This document shows, in pieces, positions 6,288 to 16,760 of a stretch of DNA of 64,000 bases. Origin of the DNA: Thermococcus litoralis DSM 5473 (GTDB lineage Archaea > Methanobacteriota_B > Thermococci > Thermococcales > Thermococcaceae). The position numbers and the translations under genes are program-made. The stretch covers positions 825,246 through 889,245 of the forward strand of contig NC_022084.1 in NCBI RefSeq assembly GCF_000246985.2, in the 5' to 3' direction. The stretch's first letter is position 1. Each line of letters starts with the position of its first letter. Below the pieces are notes generated by a model. It saw only the letters and a list, made by a program, of their open reading frames with translations, had not been told where the DNA came from and did no database searches.

Positions 6288-7292
6288 TTAAAGCCCCACT
6301 CTGTAGTTCTCCACCCTTATTCCGGGCTCTTCTGTTACAACACCAAGCTCAAAGCTCTCAAAGTGCTTGTTCAAAACATTCAATGCTGCATCCTTCTCTT
6401 CTTGGGAAACAACTACCACCATGCCTACGCCCATGTTAAATACCCTAAACATCTCCTCCAGCGGAACACCATTTTCATAGATCAGTTTGAAAATCCCGCT
6501 GATTGGTGGCATTTCAAGAGAAAAACCATGATTCGTGAGGCGCTTGAGGTTTAATAACCCTCCACCGGTGATGTGAGCTAATCCATGAACTTCCACTTCC
6601 CTCAAAAGCTCCAAAATTGGTTTAACATATATCCTCGTGGGTTCAAGTAAATGTTCCCAAATCTTTTTGCCTTCAAATTCATATTCAAGTCCGTACTTAG
6701 GTATTAGGAGTTTTCTTGCAAGGGTCAGCCCATTAGAATGAATTCCTGAGCTTGAGATACCTATCACCGCATCCCCCGGCTTTATTTCCTTTCCGTTTAT
6801 CACTTTATTTTTCTCGGCAACACCGATAGCCGTACCGGCAAGGTCAAAGCCGTTCACAAGCTCCGGCAAGACTGCGGTTTCGCCACCAACTATAGCTATC
6901 CCCGACTGTTTTGCTCCCTCATAAAGGCCTTTTGCTATCTCCTGAAAAATTTCTCTATTTGGTTCATTAACTGCAAGATAGTCCACCAAAGCCACTGGCT
7001 CCGCCCCAACACATATCAAATCATTCACGTTCATCGCTATCATGTCGATTCCAATGGTATCATATTTTCCAACTGCCTCTGCAACTAAGGTTTTAGTTCC
7101 AACTCCATCCGTTGTCATCGCAAGGTAAAAGTCTCCAAAGTCCATCAACGCAGCATAATGACCTATATCAGCCTTAGGTTCACCCATTTTTCCCTTCCTA
7201 AACTCAAAAGTTGCTTTTGCAAGAGAAATTATTCCTTTTAGAGCCTGTTGAGTCTTTTCATCATCAACACCAGCTTGCGCATAAGTCAACAT
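6288..7292 (-). CDS. purM: Phosphoribosylformylglycinamidine cyclo-ligase (AIR synthetase)
   Basis: Closes FGAM to AIR with ATP. The 334-aa protein begins [10 protein letters not shown] and shows the PurM motifs [41 protein letters not shown] and AHITGGG. The longer frame to 7352 is rejected because GGTGATAATC directly precedes ATG 7292. AIR is the branch point to both IMP and the ThiC reaction encoded at 29810-31099. The gene is divergent from purT and shares a purine box with it. Confidence 0.95.
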
Positions 7293-7335
7293 GATTATCA
7301 CCGGAAGATGTTTGAGAGAAGGATTTAAAAGTTTT

Positions 7336-7351
7336 ATCATTTTTATGTTCA
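7336..7351. promoter_or_regulatory. Shared purine box between purM and purT
   Basis: ATCATTTTTATGTTC is followed on the plus strand by an AAACTCTTAAATATT-type TATA region for purT. Read on the minus strand, the same palindrome (GAACATAAAAATGAT) is followed by an ACTTTTAAATCC TATA region for purM. One site appears to serve both divergent promoters. Confidence 0.6.
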
Positions 7352-7412
7352 AAAACTCTTAAATATTCCCAAAGTTTTAACATACAAACGTCAATAAATT
7401 TAGGTGATACCC

Positions 7413-8702
7413 ATGATAAGCATTAGAGATGAAATTGGAACCCCCCTAACTGATTCTGCTGTTAAAATTCTCCTTCTTGGGAGTGGCGAACTTGGAAAAG
7501 AGATAACCATAGAGGCCCAGAGATTAGGAATCGAGGTTATCGCAGTCGATCGATATCCAAATGCCCCCGCCATGCAGGTTGCTCACAAAAGCTACGTAGG
7601 CAATATGAAAGATAAGGACTTCCTCTGGAGCATTGTGGAGAGGGAAAAACCTGACGCAATAGTGCCGGAAATAGAGGCAATAAACCTTGATGCACTCTTT
7701 GAGATTGAAAAGGAAGGTTATTTTGTAGTACCAAATGCTAAAGCTACCTGGATAGCCATGCATAGAGAAAGAACTCGTGAGACCCTTGCAAAAGAAGCAA
7801 AGGTCCCAACATCTCGTTACGCATATGCAACAACCCTGGATGAGCTCTATGATGCATGTGAAAAGATAGGTTACCCCTGTCACACTAAGGCCATAATGAG
7901 CTCCAGTGGAAAAGGTTCTTACTTCGTTAAAGGGCCCGAAGATGTTCCTAAAGCGTGGGAAGTGGCAAAGAAAAAGGCAAGGGGAAGTGCTGATAAGATA
8001 ATCGTTGAGGAGCATATAGACTTTGATGTTGAGATTACCGAATTAGCGGTTAGGCACTTCGATGAGAACGGAAAAATTGTAACGACCTTCCCAAAGCCTG
8101 TTGGCCATTACCAAATTGAAGGAGATTACCACTCAAGCTGGCAGCCTGCAGAGATAAGTGAAAAGGCCGAGTGTGAGGTGTATAGAATAGCTAAACGCAT
8201 AACTGATGTTCTCGGAGGTCTTGGAATATTTGGTGTCGAGATGTTTGTTAAAGGAGACAAAGTATGGGCCAACGAAGTTTCTCCAAGACCCCACGACACT
8301 GGAATGGTAACCATGGCTTCCCATCCAACTGGTTTTTCTGAATTTGGACTCCACGTTAGAGCTGTGTTGGGCCTCCCGATTCCAGCTGTTGAGGAAAACG
8401 GCATCAGGAAGTTCCCGATTTTAACTCCTGCAGCAACTCACGTAATCCTTTCAAATCAAGAAGGTTATGCCCCAAAGTTTAGGAATATCTTCAAAGGCCT
8501 AAACGTACCAAATACAACAATAAGACTCTTCGGGAAGCCTGAAGCATACAAGGGGAGACGTCTTGGTGTGGCACTAGCATGGGACAAGGATGTAGAGGTT
8601 GCGAAGAGAAAAGCAGAAGCAGTCGCTCACATGATTGAGCTGAGAACAAGAAGCGGTGAATGGCAGAGTCAGGATTATGAAAAAAGAAAACATCTGCTTT
8701 AG
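7413..8702 (+). CDS. purT: Formate-dependent phosphoribosylglycinamide formyltransferase
   Basis: Converts GAR, formate and ATP to FGAR, the folate-free alternative to PurN. The 429-aa ATP-grasp protein has KILLLGSGELGKE, IEVIAVDRY, PEIEAI, MSSSGKGSYFV (ATP-grasp loop), VWANEVSPRPHDTGMVT and a C-terminal EVAKRKAEAVAH segment, all close to bacterial PurT. The start at 7413 follows GGTGATACCC; the in-frame GTG at 7404 lies inside the ribosome binding site. With PurP this makes both formyl-transfer steps of purine synthesis formate-dependent, which fits the lack of any purN or purH in the window. Confidence 0.95.
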   Translation: MISIRDEIGTPLTDSAVKILLLGSGELGKEITIEAQRLGIEVIAVDRYPNAPAMQVAHKSYVGNMKDKDFLWSIVEREKPDAIVPEIEAINLDALFEIEKEGYFVVPNAKATWIAMHRERTRETLAKEAKVPTSRYAYATTLDELYDACEKIGYPCHTKAIMSSSGKGSYFVKGPEDVPKAWEVAKKKARGSADKIIVEEHIDFDVEITELAVRHFDENGKIVTTFPKPVGHYQIEGDYHSSWQPAEISEKAECEVYRIAKRITDVLGGLGIFGVEMFVKGDKVWANEVSPRPHDTGMVTMASHPTGFSEFGLHVRAVLGLPIPAVEENGIRKFPILTPAATHVILSNQEGYAPKFRNIFKGLNVPNTTIRLFGKPEAYKGRRLGVALAWDKDVEVAKRKAEAVAHMIELRTRSGEWQSQDYEKRKHLL

Positions 8703-9265: not shown

Positions 9266-10561
9266 ATGCGTGTTCTACTCGTTGGTGCCGGTGGAAGGGA
9301 AAGTGCAATCGCCGAAGCTCTTTCAAAGGATGCAGAGCTTTATGTTGTTGCAAAACATAAGAATCCGGGGATTATGAGATTAGCAAAGGATTATGGGCTT
9401 GCAAAAGAGACCGATGTTCAAAAAGTCCTCGATTTTGCCCTGAAATGGGGCGTGGATTTAGCGTTCATCGGTCCGGAAGCCCCTTTGGAGAAGGGAATCG
9501 TGAACGTCCTTGAGGAAAACGGCACCCCAACCGTAGGCCCTACAAAAGAAGCTGCTCAACTCGAAACGAATAAGGCCTTTGCGAGGCAACTGATGGAGAA
9601 ATACAAAATCCCCGGAAGAAAACTCTTCAGGGTTTTTGATGACATTGAAGAGATGAAAGCATGGATTGATGAGTTTGGAAAGCCAGTTGTTGTTAAACCC
9701 CTTGGACTCACCGGCGGCAAAGGAGTCAAAGTTGTCGGATACCAATTGAAGGACAACGAAGAGGCAAAAGGGTATGCAAAGGCTCTCATAGAAAAAGACG
9801 GAAAGGTTCTCATAGAGGAGCGCACAGATGGTGTTGAATTCACATTCCAGGTTTTTACTGATGGAAAGAAAGTTATTCCAATGCCTCTGGCCCAGGATTA
9901 CCCCCATGCTTATGAAGGCGATGTAGGCCCAATAACTGGCGGCATGGGTTCTTATTCCTGCGAAAACCATCTTCTACCCTTTATCCCAAAGGATGACTAC
10001 GAGAAAGCCCTTGAAACGCTTAAAGCCACAATCGATGCTATGAGAAAAAATGGAACACCATACAAAGGCATTCTCTACGGCCAGTTCATGCTTGCAAACG
10101 ATGAGCCGAAGATAATAGAGTTCAATGCCCGCTTTGGTGATCCAGAGGCCATGAATGTTCTACCAATTTTGAAAACTTCCCTTGTGGAGATCGGGGAGGG
10201 AATCATCGATGGTAACTTAAAGAAAGCTGAATTCGAGCAAAAAGCAACAGTTGTGAAGTATGTTGCCCCCAAAGGATACCCCACTAATCCAATAAAAGGA
10301 GTTAAACTTCAAATCAACGAAGATAAAATCAGAGAAGAAGGGGCTAAAGTTTACTATGCATCAATTGATGAGAACTTCACAATGCTCGGCTCAAGGGCTC
10401 TGGCCATTGTGGGAGTAGCTGATTCTTTAGAGGAAGCTGAAAAGATAGCTTCTCATGGGATAAAGCACGTTAATGGAGATATCTTCTACCGCAGAGATGT
10501 AGGAACTAAGGAAAGTATTGCAAAAAGAATCGAGATTATGAAAACAATTAGAGGTGAATGA
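9266..10561 (+). CDS. purD: Phosphoribosylamine-glycine ligase (GAR synthetase)
   Basis: Ligates glycine to phosphoribosylamine with ATP. The 431-aa product begins MRVLLVGAGGRESAIA and contains AFIGPEAPLEKGIV, PTKEAAQLETNKAFA, VVVKPLGLTGGKGVKVV (ATP-grasp loop), EERTDGVEFTFQ, GPITGGMGSY and EFNARFGDPEAMNVLP. Upstream in-frame ATGs at 9212 and 9254 are rejected because GGTGAAGCTC leads directly into ATG 9266. Its last codons contain the ribosome binding site of the next gene, so the two are co-translated. Confidence 0.95.
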   Translation: MRVLLVGAGGRESAIAEALSKDAELYVVAKHKNPGIMRLAKDYGLAKETDVQKVLDFALKWGVDLAFIGPEAPLEKGIVNVLEENGTPTVGPTKEAAQLETNKAFARQLMEKYKIPGRKLFRVFDDIEEMKAWIDEFGKPVVVKPLGLTGGKGVKVVGYQLKDNEEAKGYAKALIEKDGKVLIEERTDGVEFTFQVFTDGKKVIPMPLAQDYPHAYEGDVGPITGGMGSYSCENHLLPFIPKDDYEKALETLKATIDAMRKNGTPYKGILYGQFMLANDEPKIIEFNARFGDPEAMNVLPILKTSLVEIGEGIIDGNLKKAEFEQKATVVKYVAPKGYPTNPIKGVKLQINEDKIREEGAKVYYASIDENFTMLGSRALAIVGVADSLEEAEKIASHGIKHVNGDIFYRRDVGTKESIAKRIEIMKTIRGE

Positions 10562-10562
10562 A

Positions 10563-11705
10563 ATGATAGAAAGAGAGCAGATTCTGGAGGTTTTAAAAAA
10601 CTATGATAAAGAGGGAATAATTATCGGGGCAATCGGAAGTCACTCCGCATTGGATATAGCAGATGGCGCCAAAGCAGAAGGGTTTAAAACGGTTATAGTC
10701 TCTCAAAGGGGAAGGCACAGGACATATGCTGAGTATTTTAAGCAAAAAACAACAAAAGATGGCCTCACAAAAGGCTTTATTGATGAGGTAATTGTGTTGG
10801 AAAAGTTCGGTAAAATTATCGATATCCAAGAGGAACTGAGAAAGAGGAATGTTATCTTTGTCCCCAACCGTTCATTTGTGGTTTATACAGGAATTGATAG
10901 GGTGGAGAATGAGTTCCTGGTACCTCTCTTTGGAAGCAGAAACTTATTAAGGAGCGAAGAGAGAAGTGAAGAGAAGAGCTACTACTGGCTCTTAGAGAAA
11001 GCTGGCTTACCCTATCCTGAGCCCGTCAAACCAGAGGAGATTGACGATGTTGGTCTCGTGATAGTAAAACTCCCTCATGCAAAGAAGAGACTTGAAAGGG
11101 GATTTTTCACTGCCGCAAGCTACAAAGAATTTAGAGAAAAAGCCGAGAAGCTCATGAAGCTTGGCGTAATTACCGAGGAAGATCTAACCAAAGCAAGGAT
11201 TGAGCGTTACATCATTGGCCCAGTCTTCAACTTTGACTTCTTCTACTCCCCAATTGATGAGGAAATTGAGCTCCTTGGAATAGACTGGCGCTTTGAGACA
11301 AGTTTGGACGGACATGTTAGATTACCTGCCCCTCAGCAGATGACCTTACCCGAGCATCAATTTGAACCAGAATACACCGTTTGTGGCCATGCATCCTCAA
11401 CACTAAGGGAGAGCCTCCTTGAGAAGGTCTTCGACATGGCCGAGCGCTATGTGGAAGGCGCAAAGAAATACTATCCACCCGGTGTTATTGGGCCTTTCAC
11501 ACTTCAAACGGCTGTTGATAAAGACCTCAACTTCTACATCTACGATGTCGCCCCAAGAACCGGTGGTGGAACAAACATCCACATGGCGATGGGCCATCCA
11601 TATGGAAACGCTCTCTGGAGAAAGGAGATGAGCACCGGAAGGAGAATTGCTCTTGAGATAAAGCGTGCCATTGAGCTGGATGAGCTTGAGAATGTGGTTA
11701 CATGA
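10563..11705 (+). CDS. PurP-family ATP-grasp ligase (paralogue 1)
   Basis: A 380-aa relative of FAICAR synthetase, which joins AICAR, formate and ATP. It has the PurP N-terminal pattern GAIGSHSALDIADGAKAEGF, the loop NRSFVVYTGI, the C-terminal GVIGPFTLQ and the end signature STGRRIALEIKRAIE. It is longer than the other two copies here (310 and 333 aa), with an inserted segment around residues 60-100. The ATG lies 2 bases after the purD stop, with GGTGA inside purD. The third paralogue at 34164 looks most canonical, so this copy may have a diverged substrate. Which paralogue acts in vivo is unclear. Confidence 0.85.
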   Translation: MIEREQILEVLKNYDKEGIIIGAIGSHSALDIADGAKAEGFKTVIVSQRGRHRTYAEYFKQKTTKDGLTKGFIDEVIVLEKFGKIIDIQEELRKRNVIFVPNRSFVVYTGIDRVENEFLVPLFGSRNLLRSEERSEEKSYYWLLEKAGLPYPEPVKPEEIDDVGLVIVKLPHAKKRLERGFFTAASYKEFREKAEKLMKLGVITEEDLTKARIERYIIGPVFNFDFFYSPIDEEIELLGIDWRFETSLDGHVRLPAPQQMTLPEHQFEPEYTVCGHASSTLRESLLEKVFDMAERYVEGAKKYYPPGVIGPFTLQTAVDKDLNFYIYDVAPRTGGGTNIHMAMGHPYGNALWRKEMSTGRRIALEIKRAIELDELENVVT

Positions 11706-11844
11706 TTTACAATTTCTTGATTACTTTTCAAGAGTTTACTTATTTACAGACTTCGAATTTGGAGAAAGAATCTTTTTGCTAGTTACTTTTTTTTTAGAAA
11801 TTTATCAACTTTAAATTATAAACCACAAGTTTACGAAAGTTTTA

Positions 11845-11856
11845 AGTATAAATATG
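11845..11856 (+). promoter_or_regulatory. Putative promoter (TATA) of the RiPP operon
   Basis: AGTATAAATATG lies about 60 bp before the first precursor peptide in an otherwise featureless AT-rich gap (11706-11914). No purine box is present, so the cassette is unlikely to share the purine control of its neighbours. Confidence 0.4.
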
Positions 11857-11914
11857 TCTTTAGAATAATATGCCGATGTAACGATGAGGCAAAATAAAAA
11901 GGAGGTGGTGTGAA

Positions 11915-12037
11915 ATGTTGAAAGTAGTAGAGACCACCTATGAAAGGGCCTCTAAATTTATTGGGATAACAGCATGTTCTGGTAGGGCAATTTGGTGTGG
12001 AGGAGATGGTTCAGTAGTACTATTGAAGCCATACTGA
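11915..12037 (+). CDS. RiPP precursor peptide 1
   Basis: A 40-residue ORF with a strong GGAGGTGG ribosome binding site, missed by length-limited gene finding. It starts MLKVVETTYERASKFIG and continues ITACSGRAIWCGG, then a variable tail DGSVVLLKPY. It shares the block KFIGITACSG-x-A-x-x-CGG with two further ORFs immediately downstream. The two cysteines (21 and 28) are seven residues apart. It is followed by a radical SAM enzyme and an ABC transporter, so it is best read as a ribosomally made peptide that is modified and exported. The leader/core boundary cannot be placed with certainty. Confidence 0.8.
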   Translation: MLKVVETTYERASKFIGITACSGRAIWCGGDGSVVLLKPY

Positions 12038-12070
12038 AGCTGTACAGATGTGTACAGGGGGTAGGATAGA

Positions 12071-12205
12071 ATGGTTCTAAAAATATTAAACACAACCTAT
12101 ATTAGAGCAAATAAGTTTATCGGAATAACAGCATGTTCTGGAGAAGCTCTCATATGCGGAGGTACAGGACCAAATCCAACTATCAAAAATATAACATTGC
12201 CATAA
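12071..12205 (+). CDS. RiPP precursor peptide 2
   Basis: A 44-residue ORF preceded by GGGGGTAGGATAG. It starts MVLKILNTTYIRANKF, then IGITACSGEALICGG, and ends TGPNPTIKNITLP. Cysteines are at 22 and 29. The DNA is close to that of precursor 3 across the first two thirds, so the pair probably arose by recent tandem duplication; precursor 1 is more diverged. Confidence 0.85.
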   Translation: MVLKILNTTYIRANKFIGITACSGEALICGGTGPNPTIKNITLP

Positions 12206-12229
12206 ATTCCTAATAAGGAGGTGTGTTTG

Positions 12230-12364
12230 ATGATTCTGAAAGTATTAAACACAACCTATATTAGGGCAAATAAATTTATTGGAATAACGGCATGCTCTGG
12301 GGAAGCTATCAGATGTGGAGGTGGAGGACCAAATCCAACCATTAGAAATCCACTATTATCCTGA
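12230..12364 (+). CDS. RiPP precursor peptide 3
   Basis: A 44-residue ORF preceded by AAGGAGGTG. It starts MILKVLNTTYIRANKF, then IGITACSGEAIRCGG, and ends GGPNPTIRNPLLS. Cysteines are at 22 and 29. Compared with precursor 2, differences fall mostly between and after the cysteines (ALI versus AIR; tail ends), the pattern expected of a variable core behind a conserved leader. The maturase gene begins 33 bp after its stop. Confidence 0.85.
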   Translation: MILKVLNTTYIRANKFIGITACSGEAIRCGGGGPNPTIRNPLLS

Positions 12365-12397
12365 TTCATTTAAACAAAAAGATGGAGGGGTGATGTG

Positions 12398-13870
12398 ATG
12401 GAAACACTTAACTTATTTTCTTCTCTTCAATTTTCTTATCATGTTCCCTCATTTAAGTTGGCAGATATCATTCTCGATAATAGAGATAAAGACACATTTA
12501 TCTTGTATCATCCTTGGTCTCAAACGATTTCAGAAATAAATTATGAAGATGCTTTAATATTCAAACTTTATGAACTTGAATATCCAATTAATAAAATATC
12601 AGAAATTACCAATAGACCAGAAGTTGAGATATTGAAGTTACTTAGAGAACTTGAGGAGGAACTAAGTGCTCTAAATCCCACAGAGATACATACTTTTGAT
12701 ACTCCACTAATTCTAATGCTCCTGTCGGATTTGAGATGTAACCTACGATGTAGGTATTGTTATACTGCTTCGGGATCATATTTTACAAAGACACTGTCGG
12801 ATAAGCAAGTTATGGACTTAGAAACTGCTAAAAAGGCTCTTGATATTGGTATAGAACTTGGAATAAATCAAGTTCATTTCTTTGGGGGAGGAGAGGCTTT
12901 ATTAAACTTTGAAATAATTAAGGGACTAGTCAAATATGCTGAAGCACAAAACTATCCGGTAGTTTTTGCAATGATAACAAATGGTACAAAAATTAATAAA
13001 GACTTTATAGAGTTTGTGGAGCAGTATAAGGATATTTTCAATATTACTGTAAGTATAGATGGTCCTAAACTAATTCATGATCTAAATAGAAATTACCCTA
13101 ATGGAAAAGGCTCGTTTGAGGATACTCTGAGAGGCATAGAGATGCTAAAGGAGAGAAAATTAACATTCGAACTTCAAGTTACGTACCCAATAGAAGCTGA
13201 ACAATTTGGATATGGTCCAAAAGAAATTGCTAATTATTTGAGTACCTTATCGCCATTCCTCATTGTAAAAATATGTGATTACCATGAACAGTTTAACACA
13301 GGGGAACGACCATTTCATGGCATGTTGGGATACTTAATGATGGAGTATATTAGTGATGTTTTTGAAAAATTAAAGAGCACAACTCCCCAATATTACGACC
13401 ACAATCTGGCAATTACATTGAGTTATATAGCAAGAAGAGCAACCAAACTATATCCATGTCCATTTTCACATTTTGTGACAGTACTTCCTGATGGGAAGTT
13501 ACTTACATGTCACATGATAGTTGATTACTTGTTAGGTACAGTTAATTCCAGTAAAACTGAGCTATTAAATAAACTTAAAAAGGCAGTTGAGTTTAATAAA
13601 AAATTTTCGACTTTACTAGATTATCATGACTTTTGGCATGCAGGGCTTCAAGATATATGTCCCTCAGAGCTATTTGGTGGATTAACAAATGTGCTCACGA
13701 AAACCGAGAAGCTGAGACTAAGTAAGTTTTCAAAAAGCATGCTAGAAGCATATTGGGATTCAGTATTGTTTAATGTTTACAAAAGTTACAAAGAAAACAC
13801 CTTACAAAAGGTTTATAGTAACTTGGAATACTTCTTTGAGACATTATACAAACAACCAAGAGTTCAATGA
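12398..13870 (+). CDS. Radical SAM peptide-modifying maturase
   Basis: A 490-residue radical SAM protein. The CxxxCxxC cluster motif is CNLRCRYC at about residues 114-121, followed by the SAM-binding GGGEALL motif. The first 95 residues look like a winged-helix, PqqD-like RiPP recognition element (Y-E-D-A-L-I-F-K-L plus a helical pair), which would grip the precursor leader. The C-terminus has extra cysteines (LYPCPF, LLTCHM, DICPSE), suggesting an auxiliary cluster of reduced SPASM/twitch type. Start ATG 12398 follows GGAGGGGTGAT. Likely chemistry is a thioether or other radical crosslink on the conserved Cys region of the precursors, as in sactipeptides or ranthipeptides; the exact reaction is not deducible. 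Confidence 0.85.
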   Translation: METLNLFSSLQFSYHVPSFKLADIILDNRDKDTFILYHPWSQTISEINYEDALIFKLYELEYPINKISEITNRPEVEILKLLRELEEELSALNPTEIHTFDTPLILMLLSDLRCNLRCRYCYTASGSYFTKTLSDKQVMDLETAKKALDIGIELGINQVHFFGGGEALLNFEIIKGLVKYAEAQNYPVVFAMITNGTKINKDFIEFVEQYKDIFNITVSIDGPKLIHDLNRNYPNGKGSFEDTLRGIEMLKERKLTFELQVTYPIEAEQFGYGPKEIANYLSTLSPFLIVKICDYHEQFNTGERPFHGMLGYLMMEYISDVFEKLKSTTPQYYDHNLAITLSYIARRATKLYPCPFSHFVTVLPDGKLLTCHMIVDYLLGTVNSSKTELLNKLKKAVEFNKKFSTLLDYHDFWHAGLQDICPSELFGGLTNVLTKTEKLRLSKFSKSMLEAYWDSVLFNVYKSYKENTLQKVYSNLEYFFETLYKQPRVQ

Positions 13871-13891
13871 ACAATAAAAGGTGCTTAATAT

Positions 13892-15565
13892 ATGTCAGTA
13901 AATATAAGAGATGTCCTTGAGGAATCTATAAAAGTCTCAAAAAATCTAAAAGGAGACATAGTCATAACAATAATTCTTTTCCTTATTCTTTCTATTTTCG
14001 GATACGCCCAAGCAATGCTCATGAAGAATTTTATAGATTCTCTTGTATCATTACAGGAATTTTCAACAATCTCAAAAATTGGATTAGCTCTGCTGGTTCT
14101 CACATTTTTAAGCTACTTAGGAAGTTTTTATGGGGAGTTCATGCTCCAGAGATTGGGAATCAAAGCTTTAAAAATATTTTCTCAAGATTTGGTTTTCTCT
14201 ATTCATAGGGCAAAACTAGGAAAAATAAGCAGTGGAGATGTAATAGCGAGATTCGTTTCGGACTTACCAGAGCTCAGTCTGGGATTAGCAGGTTTAATCC
14301 CTGGATTAAGTGTTCAGTTGATTAATATTGCAGTAGCAACGTTTACCCTATATTCATTATCTCCAACAATGCTTCTTGTAGCTGTCTTAATAATCCCAAT
14401 AAACTATGCTATCTATAAGAAAGCATCAGGAAAATCCATTGAGTATTCAAAACGAGAAAGAGAATCATTGTCAAAAGTAGTTGCTGTTACCAAAACAAGC
14501 ATTGATAATCTTTTCTTTATTAAACGTTTGGATAAGTACGAATATTTTGAAGAGAGATTCTCCATGAGTCTTTCAGAGTGGTTAAAGAATATGACAAGAT
14601 TCCTGCGGGTAAGGATATTCTTCCAGAAATCGTACTATTACACAAGCAGTATAGCTCGACTGATAATGTTGCTTGTTGGTGGTTGGCTGGCAACAAAAGG
14701 ACTCGCCTCAGTGGGAGCAATCGTAGCTTTCACGAACTATTTACCGCAATTCTATGAACCTCTTACTAATCTGGCTAATTCATTCACATATCTCAATGCA
14801 CTTATCCCTTACGTAGAGCGCTATAAGGAGATAGTAAACATTGAAAAAGAAGACCTTGATAAGGGGCATGAGTTAAAATCGGTCAAAAGCATTGAATGTA
14901 AAAATGTAAGTGTTGGCATTTTAAGTAATGTGACTCTAGAACTCAAAAAGAACGAAACAATTGGAATCGTTGGACCCATAGGTTCTGGAAAAACAACCCT
15001 GGCATTAACTTTAATCAGGTTACGTGAGCCAGAGACTGGCCACATTTTAATAAATGGGAAAGATTACCGGGTTTATAGTCTTAGGTCTTTAAGAAAGAGG
15101 ATATATTACCTACCATCTAAAGACTGGATTTTTGATGGAACTTTAAAGGAGAATTTGATGCTTGACGACATGTATCGGGAGGACGAAGTTATTCATGTTC
15201 TCAAGATTGTAGGAATAGATTTTGCCGAACTTGATGATTATATAACTGGTAAAGCTCTTTCTGAAGGACAAAAACAAAAAATAGCATTAGCTAGGGCACT
15301 TTTAAGAAAACCGGAGGTTTTGATACTTGATGAGGCCACAAACAGTCTTGATGTTCAAAATGAAGCTCAAGTCCTCGAAAAGATTCGAGAGTTTTTAAAG
15401 GACTCGACTTTAATTATAATATCGCATCGTTTAACCGCTCTAAAAAATGCCGATAAAATATTTGTTTTAAATAAGGGGAAGATCCTTGACTCTGGCAAAC
15501 ATGAGGAACTCTACGAAAGATGCTCCCTGTATAGAACGCTCGTTGAGAACTCAAGAGTATCTTAG
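13892..15565 (+). CDS. ABC exporter (fused membrane and ATPase domains)
   Basis: A 557-aa half-transporter. An N-terminal domain of about six membrane helices (residues 20-300) is followed by the nucleotide-binding domain with Walker A GPIGSGKTT (361-369), signature LSEGQKQKIALARAL (LSEGQ instead of the common LSGGQ), Walker B VLILDEATNSLD and switch His SHRL. No N-terminal C39 peptidase domain is present, so leader removal, if any, needs a separate protease. It lies 21 bp after the maturase and probably exports the modified peptides; self-protection is an alternative role. Confidence 0.9.
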   Translation: MSVNIRDVLEESIKVSKNLKGDIVITIILFLILSIFGYAQAMLMKNFIDSLVSLQEFSTISKIGLALLVLTFLSYLGSFYGEFMLQRLGIKALKIFSQDLVFSIHRAKLGKISSGDVIARFVSDLPELSLGLAGLIPGLSVQLINIAVATFTLYSLSPTMLLVAVLIIPINYAIYKKASGKSIEYSKRERESLSKVVAVTKTSIDNLFFIKRLDKYEYFEERFSMSLSEWLKNMTRFLRVRIFFQKSYYYTSSIARLIMLLVGGWLATKGLASVGAIVAFTNYLPQFYEPLTNLANSFTYLNALIPYVERYKEIVNIEKEDLDKGHELKSVKSIECKNVSVGILSNVTLELKKNETIGIVGPIGSGKTTLALTLIRLREPETGHILINGKDYRVYSLRSLRKRIYYLPSKDWIFDGTLKENLMLDDMYREDEVIHVLKIVGIDFAELDDYITGKALSEGQKQKIALARALLRKPEVLILDEATNSLDVQNEAQVLEKIREFLKDSTLIIISHRLTALKNADKIFVLNKGKILDSGKHEELYERCSLYRTLVENSRVS

Positions 15566-15771
15566 GGGATATAAATCAAAGCATGTCTTTGGGCTAGTTT
15601 TTAAAATTATGGGAGTCTAGGCATTTAACACAACAGTTTAAGTCATATTCTTGGCAATGACATATTATGTCCTAGATACGGGATTGATATCTTAGTGAAG
15701 ATTGATCTATTGTTGCGATTTCATGGCTTTACTACAATCACTTTTTATGAGAGTGGTGAAAAAAGTTTTAA
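15566..15771. other. Intergenic region downstream of the RiPP cassette
   Basis: About 200 bp with no convincing gene. It contains a perfect 13-base inverted repeat, GACATATTATGTC, at 15659-15671. Otherwise it is AT-rich sequence leading to the purS promoter. Confidence 0.3.
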
Positions 15772-15772
15772 T

Positions 15773-15787
15773 TAACATTTTTATGCA
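15773..15787 (+). promoter_or_regulatory. Purine box upstream of purS
   Basis: TAACATTTTTATGCAT, followed by AAATAAACCTTAAAAACCC (BRE/TATA) and AAATTTTTACATTTTT. This layout is almost base-for-base the same upstream of purL and of the purP at 34164. Confidence 0.65.
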
Positions 15788-15841
15788 TAAATAAACCTTA
15801 AAAACCCTAAATTTTTACATTTTTTTGATAAGGTGATGCTC

Positions 15842-16087
15842 ATGAAGTGGAAAGCTAAGGTTGTAATCCGCTTAAAAGAAGGGCTTAACGATCCCGAGGG
15901 GAGAGTCATTGGAAAGGCCCTCAAAAACTTAGGCTATAAAGTTGAAGAGCTGAAGGTTCCAAAATATTTCGAGCTCATTTTTGAAAGCGAAGCTCCAGAG
16001 AAAGATGTCGAGGAGATGTGCAAACGCCTGCTTGCAAACCCAGTTATCCACACTTATGAATATCAAATCGAGCCTTTAGGTGAGTGA
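15842..16087 (+). CDS. purS: Phosphoribosylformylglycinamidine synthase, PurS subunit
   Basis: The small structural subunit that links PurQ and PurL in the three-part FGAM synthetase. The 81-aa product starts [14 protein letters not shown] and contains the family segment [16 protein letters not shown] and a C-terminal [14 protein letters not shown] at 15833 is in frame but overlaps GGTGAT. The stop codon is 1 base before the purQ ATG, so translation is coupled. Confidence 0.95.
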
Positions 16088-16088
16088 A

Positions 16089-16760
16089 ATGCCAAAGTTC
16101 GCTGTCATAGTATTCCCAGGGACAAACTGCGATTTTGAGACCGTTGAAGCAATTAAAAAAGCTGGTGGAAAAGCGGAGAGAGTCTGGTATAAGCAAAGCC
16201 TCAAAGACTTTGATGGCGTTGTTTTGCCCGGTGGATTCAGCTATGCCGATTATTTGAGAGCTGGCGCAATAAGTGCAAGGGCAGAGGTAATGGAGGAAAT
16301 TAAGGTTCTTGCCAACGAAGGCAAACCCGTTTTAGGCATTTGCAACGGCTTTCAAATCTTAACGGAGTCAGCTCTTCTGCCGGGAGCATTGAGACCAAAT
16401 AAGATTCCAAGCTTCCTATGCAAGTGGGTTTACCTTAAAGTTAGCGACACCTAAACAGCTTTTACCCAACTCTACAAAGAGGGAGAGGTCATTAGAATGC
16501 CAATAGCACATGCTGAAGGGAATTACTACTCCGAGAGCTTAGATAGCGTAAGGATAACCTTCCAGTACAGCGACGAGAAAGGAGAGATAACGGAAGATGC
16601 AAACCCCAACGGCTCTCTCTTGAACATAGCGGGAATAAGCAATGAAAAGGGCAACGTTCTCGGCATGATGCCTCATCCAGAGAGGGCGAGTGATAAATGG
16701 CTGGGAAGCGAGGACGGGTTGAGGATCTTCAAGAGCATGGTGGAATATGCCAAAAGATAG
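16089..16760 (+). pseudogene. purQ: FGAM synthase glutaminase subunit PurQ, interrupted by an in-frame TAA
   Basis: The glutaminase subunit that supplies ammonia to PurL. Reading from ATG 16089, the frame has [21 protein letters not shown] and the nucleophile motif [10 protein letters not shown], then runs into TAA at 16452-16454 after YLKVSDT. The same frame continues without a break as [25 protein letters not shown] and [13 protein letters not shown], so both halves together make one normal PurQ of about 223 residues. The stop occupies a position where relatives appear to carry a lysine codon, so a single A-to-T change (AAA to TAA) would explain it. The upstream piece alone lacks the catalytic His-Glu (HPE). 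Options are a true nonsense mutation, a sequencing error, or stop readthrough. An internal ATG at 16497 could start the second piece. Confidence 0.9.

Follow-up and report, generated by a model that had tools for sequence, protein, structure and literature searches.

The 64,000-nucleotide stretch analysed here (the window; G000:C1:825246-889245 of Thermococcus litoralis DSM 5473, whose genome is a single contig of 2,215,172 bases) carries at 11915-15565 a cassette in which three tandem precursor open reading frames (ORFs) are followed by a radical S-adenosylmethionine (SAM) maturase and then by an ATP-binding cassette (ABC) exporter, all on the + strand. From sequence and predicted structure, we read it as a cassette for a ribosomally synthesised and post-translationally modified peptide (RiPP), which would make a thioether peptide that the exporter secretes and protects against, the product being an archaeocin directed at related cells. 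We put the probability of this reading at about 0.62. The features that carry it are the following (aa, amino acids; SD, Shine-Dalgarno match; RRE, RiPP recognition element).

11915..12037, + strand: precursor peptide 1, 40 aa; SD 9/10
12071..12205, + strand: precursor peptide 2, 44 aa; SD 6/10; diverged, broken relative in genome G104
12230..12364, + strand: precursor peptide 3, 44 aa from the ATG; SD 8/10; the listed GTG start at 12221 adds 3 aa
12398..13870, + strand: radical SAM maturase, 490 aa from the ATG (491 from the GTG at 12395); Pfam Radical_SAM, 2.5e-18
12446..12691, + strand: N-terminal RRE-like domain of the maturase; AlphaFold2 fold and profile against CteB
13892..15565, + strand: ABC exporter, 557 aa, transmembrane and ATPase parts in one chain (Pfam); proposed immunity determinant

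Precursor peptides

The motif KFIGITACSG-x-A-x-x-CGG is invariant across the three precursors, which share 22 invariant columns in total. Their N-terminal half is also conserved (LK-x-x-x-TTY-x-RA-x-KF, with Y9 and R11 invariant as YER or YIR), and the two Cys are spaced C-x6-C. Pairwise ratios of non-synonymous to synonymous substitution (dN/dS, Nei-Gojobori) were 0.23, 0.32, and 0.26, with lower values in the core, and all three protein sequences are unchanged in two other genomes. Such low dN/dS indicates that the ORFs are selected coding genes; together with the conservation it rules out chance small ORFs. Thus, as looked for in a RiPP locus, short precursor ORFs under selection adjoin a modifying enzyme. 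The first-pass annotation of this DNA had described three 40-44 residue ORFs with a shared motif and strong ribosome binding sites: the ORFs and the motif held throughout, and the ribosome binding sites, scored as matches to AGGAGGTGAT, were strong for precursors 1 and 3 and modest for precursor 2. Its suggestion that the precursor family may be undescribed agrees with the lack of any matching Pfam or NCBIfam model, and with a presence in only four congeneric genomes.

Maturase architecture

The maturase combines an RRE (about residues 17-95), a radical SAM core (CNLRCRYC at 114-121), and a Twitch-like domain with C354, C371, and C421, so that radical SAM core, Twitch-like Cys set, and RRE stand together as in a sactipeptide-type enzyme. 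Pfam recovered the radical SAM core only and matched nothing in the first 100 residues. For this N-terminal region, AlphaFold2 predicts strands at 8-12, 17-22, and 27-31, then helices at 33-43, 48-55, and 59-75 (beta-beta-beta-alpha-alpha-alpha), and a profile built from it and its homologues matches CteB residues 6-83 (E 1.2e-17). Moreover, when the isolated domain is searched with Foldseek, RRE-bearing proteins take the first seven places (TbiB1, CteB, and another lasso-peptide B1 protein among them), at E-values of only 0.06-0.7. Taken together, profile, predicted fold, and Foldseek make the assignment of this domain as an RRE well supported, in keeping with the RRE fold anticipated at first reading.

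Across the full maturase, CteB is the best solved relative, both by profile (7.4e-38) and by Foldseek with the AlphaFold2 model (4.9e-17). The nearest NCBIfam models are the CcpM, PapB, nif11-type, and SCIFF peptide maturases, all far under cut-off, which rules out membership of SCIFF, nif11, or PapB.

In an alignment of 28 sequences, all that the maturase retains of the SPASM Cys set is C354 and C371 (C-x11-G-x4-C) and C421; the other four Cys of the motif CX9-15GX4C-gap-CX2CX5CX3C-gap-C are absent. By position, the three correspond to SPASM Cys 1, 2, and 6, which we take to be the ligands of auxiliary cluster I (Aux I). The Aux II Cys are all gone, likewise in the sister family described below. 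Since the Aux I Cys are kept and those of Aux II are lost, the C-terminal domain is best described as Twitch-like and not as a full SPASM domain, which refines the earlier description of a radical SAM maturase with an N-terminal recognition-like domain. The seven-Cys SPASM motif has been defined previously, and a one-cluster Twitch variant is found in the sactisynthase SkfB (PMC6231123).

Likely chemistry and relation to known systems

Thioether linkage of the two precursor Cys appears the likeliest chemistry, and is our best inference from the kinship with CteB, the single-cluster Twitch domain of SkfB, and the Aux I cluster of CteB, which has an open site that binds a substrate Cys (PMC6231123). 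The conserved small residues and the T near the Cys would be candidate alpha-carbon acceptors. The ranthipeptide pattern C-x3-[D/E] is not conserved in the precursors, the third position after Cys21 being R or E. Under the proposed mechanism, the RRE would bind the conserved N-terminal half of the precursor, an acceptor residue within the IGITACSG-x-A-x-x-CGG core would give up a hydrogen to the radical SAM cluster, and thermostable thioethers would form at both Cys, aided by an open-site Aux I cluster. The exporter would then secrete the product and shield the producer cell from it, the product acting on relatives as a narrow-spectrum antagonistic peptide.

CteB and the SCIFF system resemble the window cassette in having RRE, radical SAM core, and a C-terminal iron-sulphur domain in one chain, and a Cys peptide as substrate. 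However, the SPASM domain of CteB is complete, with both Aux I and Aux II, the SCIFF precursor has six Cys in contrast to two here, and the maturase scores 95.7 bits against the TIGR03974 cut-off of 425. SkfB, the sactisynthase of the sporulation killing factor, shares RRE, radical SAM core, and single-cluster Twitch domain (PMC6231123), and its product is antagonistic, as the window's would be; but it is a distant match to the window maturase (4.4e-05), has a CxC Aux ligand pattern, and acts on an unrelated precursor; the Thermococcus lineage lies nearer to CteB than to SkfB. The PapB ranthipeptide family (NF047865) is a thioether-forming radical SAM relative, matching over 109-385 at 2.3e-34; yet the window maturase reaches 119 bits against a cut-off of 340, and the C-x3-[D/E] acceptor pattern known from PapB is the one not conserved in the precursors.

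A sister family in Thermococcales

The same gene order recurs in a sister cassette, where an ORF of 31-35 aa with PPVxPSxGGxGxxCCC is directly followed by a radical SAM maturase and then by an ABC exporter. A class-wide search found the sister peptide in five genomes, in all of them with a related maturase; these maturases are 28-30% identical overall to that of the window. The precursor-maturase-exporter architecture is therefore not peculiar to the window locus. Gene order, architecture, and the reduced Aux Cys set are common to the two families, whereas the sister cassettes hold one precursor each, carry CCC instead of C-x6-C, and lie at other genomic sites. In G098 (L094, about 6545-7460), a transposase copy occupies the place where the sister precursor would be expected, and the adjoining sister maturase and exporter are intact. 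The sister maturases of G059 and G039 are each split by a frameshift, for which sequencing error is possible.

Homologous peptides beside related maturases had been expected in other genomes. This is borne out only in part: such peptides occur beside the same maturase only within one genus, and the maturases of 28-30% identity adjoin a different Cys peptide.

Insertion site, distribution and recombination

The cassette is flanked by purP (10554-11705) and purS (starting at 15833). In the congener G096 (L188), window positions 10208-11705 and 15831-16756 meet at one point, with 98.3% and 96.2% identity (blastn), and purP is likewise joined straight to purS in G095, G097, G099, G100, and G105, which makes six congeners with an empty junction. 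Hence the cassette is the derived state and arrived as an insertion, about 4.1 kb long; two further features in the window belong to it.

11706..15830, no strand given: whole inserted segment, missing from the empty purP-purS junction of congeners
11830..11870, + strand: A/T-rich stretch resembling a promoter (TTTTAAGTATAAATATG), ahead of precursor 1, read from the sequence

No transposase was found within the inserted segment, nor any receptor or regulator gene. Scans for promoters and terminators of bacterial type gave no useful signal, the models being bacterial and the host archaeal. In G103 (L198, 2617-3777), the purP-purS junction holds another single gene, encoding a 386 aa archaeal ATPase-like protein, which points to a common site of insertion. 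Downstream, the purQ gene of the window (16080-16760) is interrupted after 124 aa by an in-frame TAA near codon 125 (16452-16454), with a 3' ORF continuing in that frame, whereas G101, G102, and G103 have the gene at its full length of 226 aa; a purine defect, readthrough, or a sequence error are possible explanations.

The precursor family is present in four of the 115 Thermococci genomes, all in the window's genus. The window genome and G098 carry an intact cassette; G102 keeps the three precursors and the exporter, with 1.3 kb of the maturase deleted; and G104 holds a remnant with a broken reading frame, at a contig end by a transposase. A hidden Markov model of the precursors, run over the retrieved loci including the flanks of maturase relatives, gave nothing significant outside this genus, and nothing was found in plasmids. 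Two pattern matches in viral contigs look like chance from their translations and were rejected. Furthermore, a scan of genome contigs with the maturase alignment returned generic radical SAM relatives only among the matches listed, the best at 42% over 146 aa.

Over about 5 kb in G098 and 3.5 kb in G102, stretches that take in the cassette, identity to the window is 100% (apart from the deletion in G102), whereas the flanks of these stretches differ by several per cent; this contrast points to recent recombination. In the comparison of window 10000-15000 with L064 of G098, the identical 5 kb lie between two species-level genomes, and contamination of the G098 assembly (4%) is possible.

ABC exporter and exporter-only alleles

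Pfam places ABC_membrane at 25-291 and ABC_tran at 344-484 of the exporter, as expected of the one-piece transporter noted earlier behind the maturase. It found no C39 peptidase domain, and the protein therefore does not belong with the peptidase-containing (double-Gly leader) exporters.

Several genomes carry the exporter alone. In G101, the precursors and the maturase are gone (junction 11867|13823), and what persists at the purP-purS site is an intact exporter, identical in DNA to the exporters of G098 and G102. G107, from another genus, has the same exporter by itself between purP and purQ, at 91.7% aa identity (dS 0.401, dN 0.042). In the sister family, exporter-only alleles occur in G037 and G044, between the genes that also flank the G059 and G039 cassettes, and further orphan exporters occur in G064, G039 (in addition to its cassette exporter), and G073 (where the gene runs off the contig end). 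Searches by tblastn with the sister maturase found no maturase remnant at the exporter-only loci of G107, G037, G044, and G064, or at the second G039 copy. Between orphan exporters, dN/dS is 0.09-0.10. An exporter kept under such constraint apart from the peptide genes probably also confers immunity; in fact, retention of the exporter gene in non-producing relatives is the pattern sought for an archaeocin with exporter-based immunity.

Alternative explanations

Several points weigh against the archaeocin reading. The chemistry is drawn from homology of about 20-30%, in an enzyme family where function is hard to predict from sequence (PMC6231123); the Foldseek E-values of the isolated RRE are weak; and the AlphaFold2 model of the maturase is of medium confidence (mean pLDDT 68), with the Twitch region low. 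Moreover, the exporters of G101, G102, and G098 are identical, so their survival may only reflect recency, and general efflux is another role that exporter-only alleles could have. Because the G101, G102, and G098 copies are too recent to show constraint, we place the weight on G107 and on the orphans of the sister family. With regard to the chemistry, the enzyme may form a bond other than a Cys thioether, such as a cyclophane at Y-x-R or an epimerisation, with the Cys serving as disulfide or metal ligands. The invariance of Y9 and R11 would suit this, C-x6-C with CGG could bind metal, and the reactions of peptide-modifying enzymes in this radical SAM superfamily are many (PMC6231123). We nevertheless hold it improbable, since the enzymes closest to the maturase (CteB, PapB, SCIFF) form thioethers or are related to ones that do, cyclophane formers score lower, the Y-x-R falls in the likely leader half, and the sister family lacks this motif but conserves its Cys. 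Similarly, the exporter could be a general multidrug or peptide exporter that stands beside the RiPP genes by chance, which would leave the exporter-only alleles uninformative on immunity; it does belong to a broad ABC superfamily (MsbA, TIGR01193), and the recent identical copies would fit. We hold this improbable too, given that the family-specific exporter (at least 91.7% identity) was found nowhere but at the cassette site, even in another genus, and is absent from most congeners, and that the sister exporters, 61-67% identical to the G101 one and about 30% to that of the window, track the type of precursor.

The role of the product was left open in the first-pass annotation, between a peptide natural product and a signal; the exporter-only alleles retained under purifying selection make an antagonistic peptide more likely than a private signal. 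A quorum or kin signal made by the same pathway, to which exporter-only strains would be blind or whose exporter they would reuse, is unlikely. In its favour, peptides of this kind, short, modified, and exported, may act as signals, three that are so alike would suit a graded one, and the exporter aside, no dedicated immunity gene is present. But the insertion also lacks a receptor or regulator, it is not obvious why a signal system would preserve a lone exporter by purifying selection in two families, and the patchiness of the cassette, present in some genomes and absent or decaying in others, is more typical of conflict genes. That decay (a shortened maturase in G102, loss of the precursors from G101, a remnant in G104, frameshifted sister maturases in G059 and G039) might also mark a selfish or relic island that makes no product at present. 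We consider this very unlikely, as the window genome and G098 have every gene intact, the precursors are under purifying selection, and the cassette appears to have swept recently by recombination. A defence-system reading was rejected, the PADLOC matches reflecting generic viperin and ABC similarity only. The archaeocin reading retains the RiPP logic of precursor, radical SAM maturase, and ABC exporter recognised at the outset, which the selected precursors, the predicted RRE, and CteB as nearest solved enzyme all sustain.

Other radical SAM peptide loci

Further radical SAM genes stand beside small peptides. At about 117.5-123.5 kb of the same contig (L091), another radical SAM protein lies by a 75 aa Cys-rich ORF (MIEVEFEII..SCTCYGGSSLCGDDC..); this locus is related to L089 and L092 and has no NCBIfam match. 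L075, L076, L084, L085, and L088 encode one to three peptides each, of 42-61 aa, mostly starting with MFKKLN and rich in C and D (DICG repeats), which adjoin a radical SAM protein of 483-492 aa and ABC-2 type genes; the two that were tested had no NCBIfam match. At L078 (4144-4239) and L087 (4207-4335), ORFs of 31-42 aa (MRAL-x-K..PK..L..C..I.DI.CE) lie behind a radical SAM protein, by a transporter resembling the major facilitator superfamily.

Significance

Radical SAM RiPP clusters of archaea have been counted by genome mining, and few archaeal RiPP products are known (PMC12144867). In the searched libraries and mostly open-access literature, we found no description of the precursor family, of a maturase with this reduced Aux set, or of the exporter-only alleles. 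Tentatively, and at somewhat less than even odds, these loci may belong to a peptide warfare among Thermococcales, in which at least two families of cross-linked archaeocins, with the exporter as immunity, would divide genomes into producers, immune non-producers, and presumably sensitive genomes with an empty site, the window's cassette spreading by homologous recombination into the purine operon.

In brief, this locus of a hyperthermophile unites three precursors in a cassette that is compact and intact. Its maturase, of the CteB lineage and having shed Aux II, offers a natural test of the role of Aux II, and close relatives supply natural producer, exporter-only, and empty alleles. Whether thioether peptides are used between hyperthermophilic archaea, and whether the exporter alone gives resistance, thereby become testable questions.

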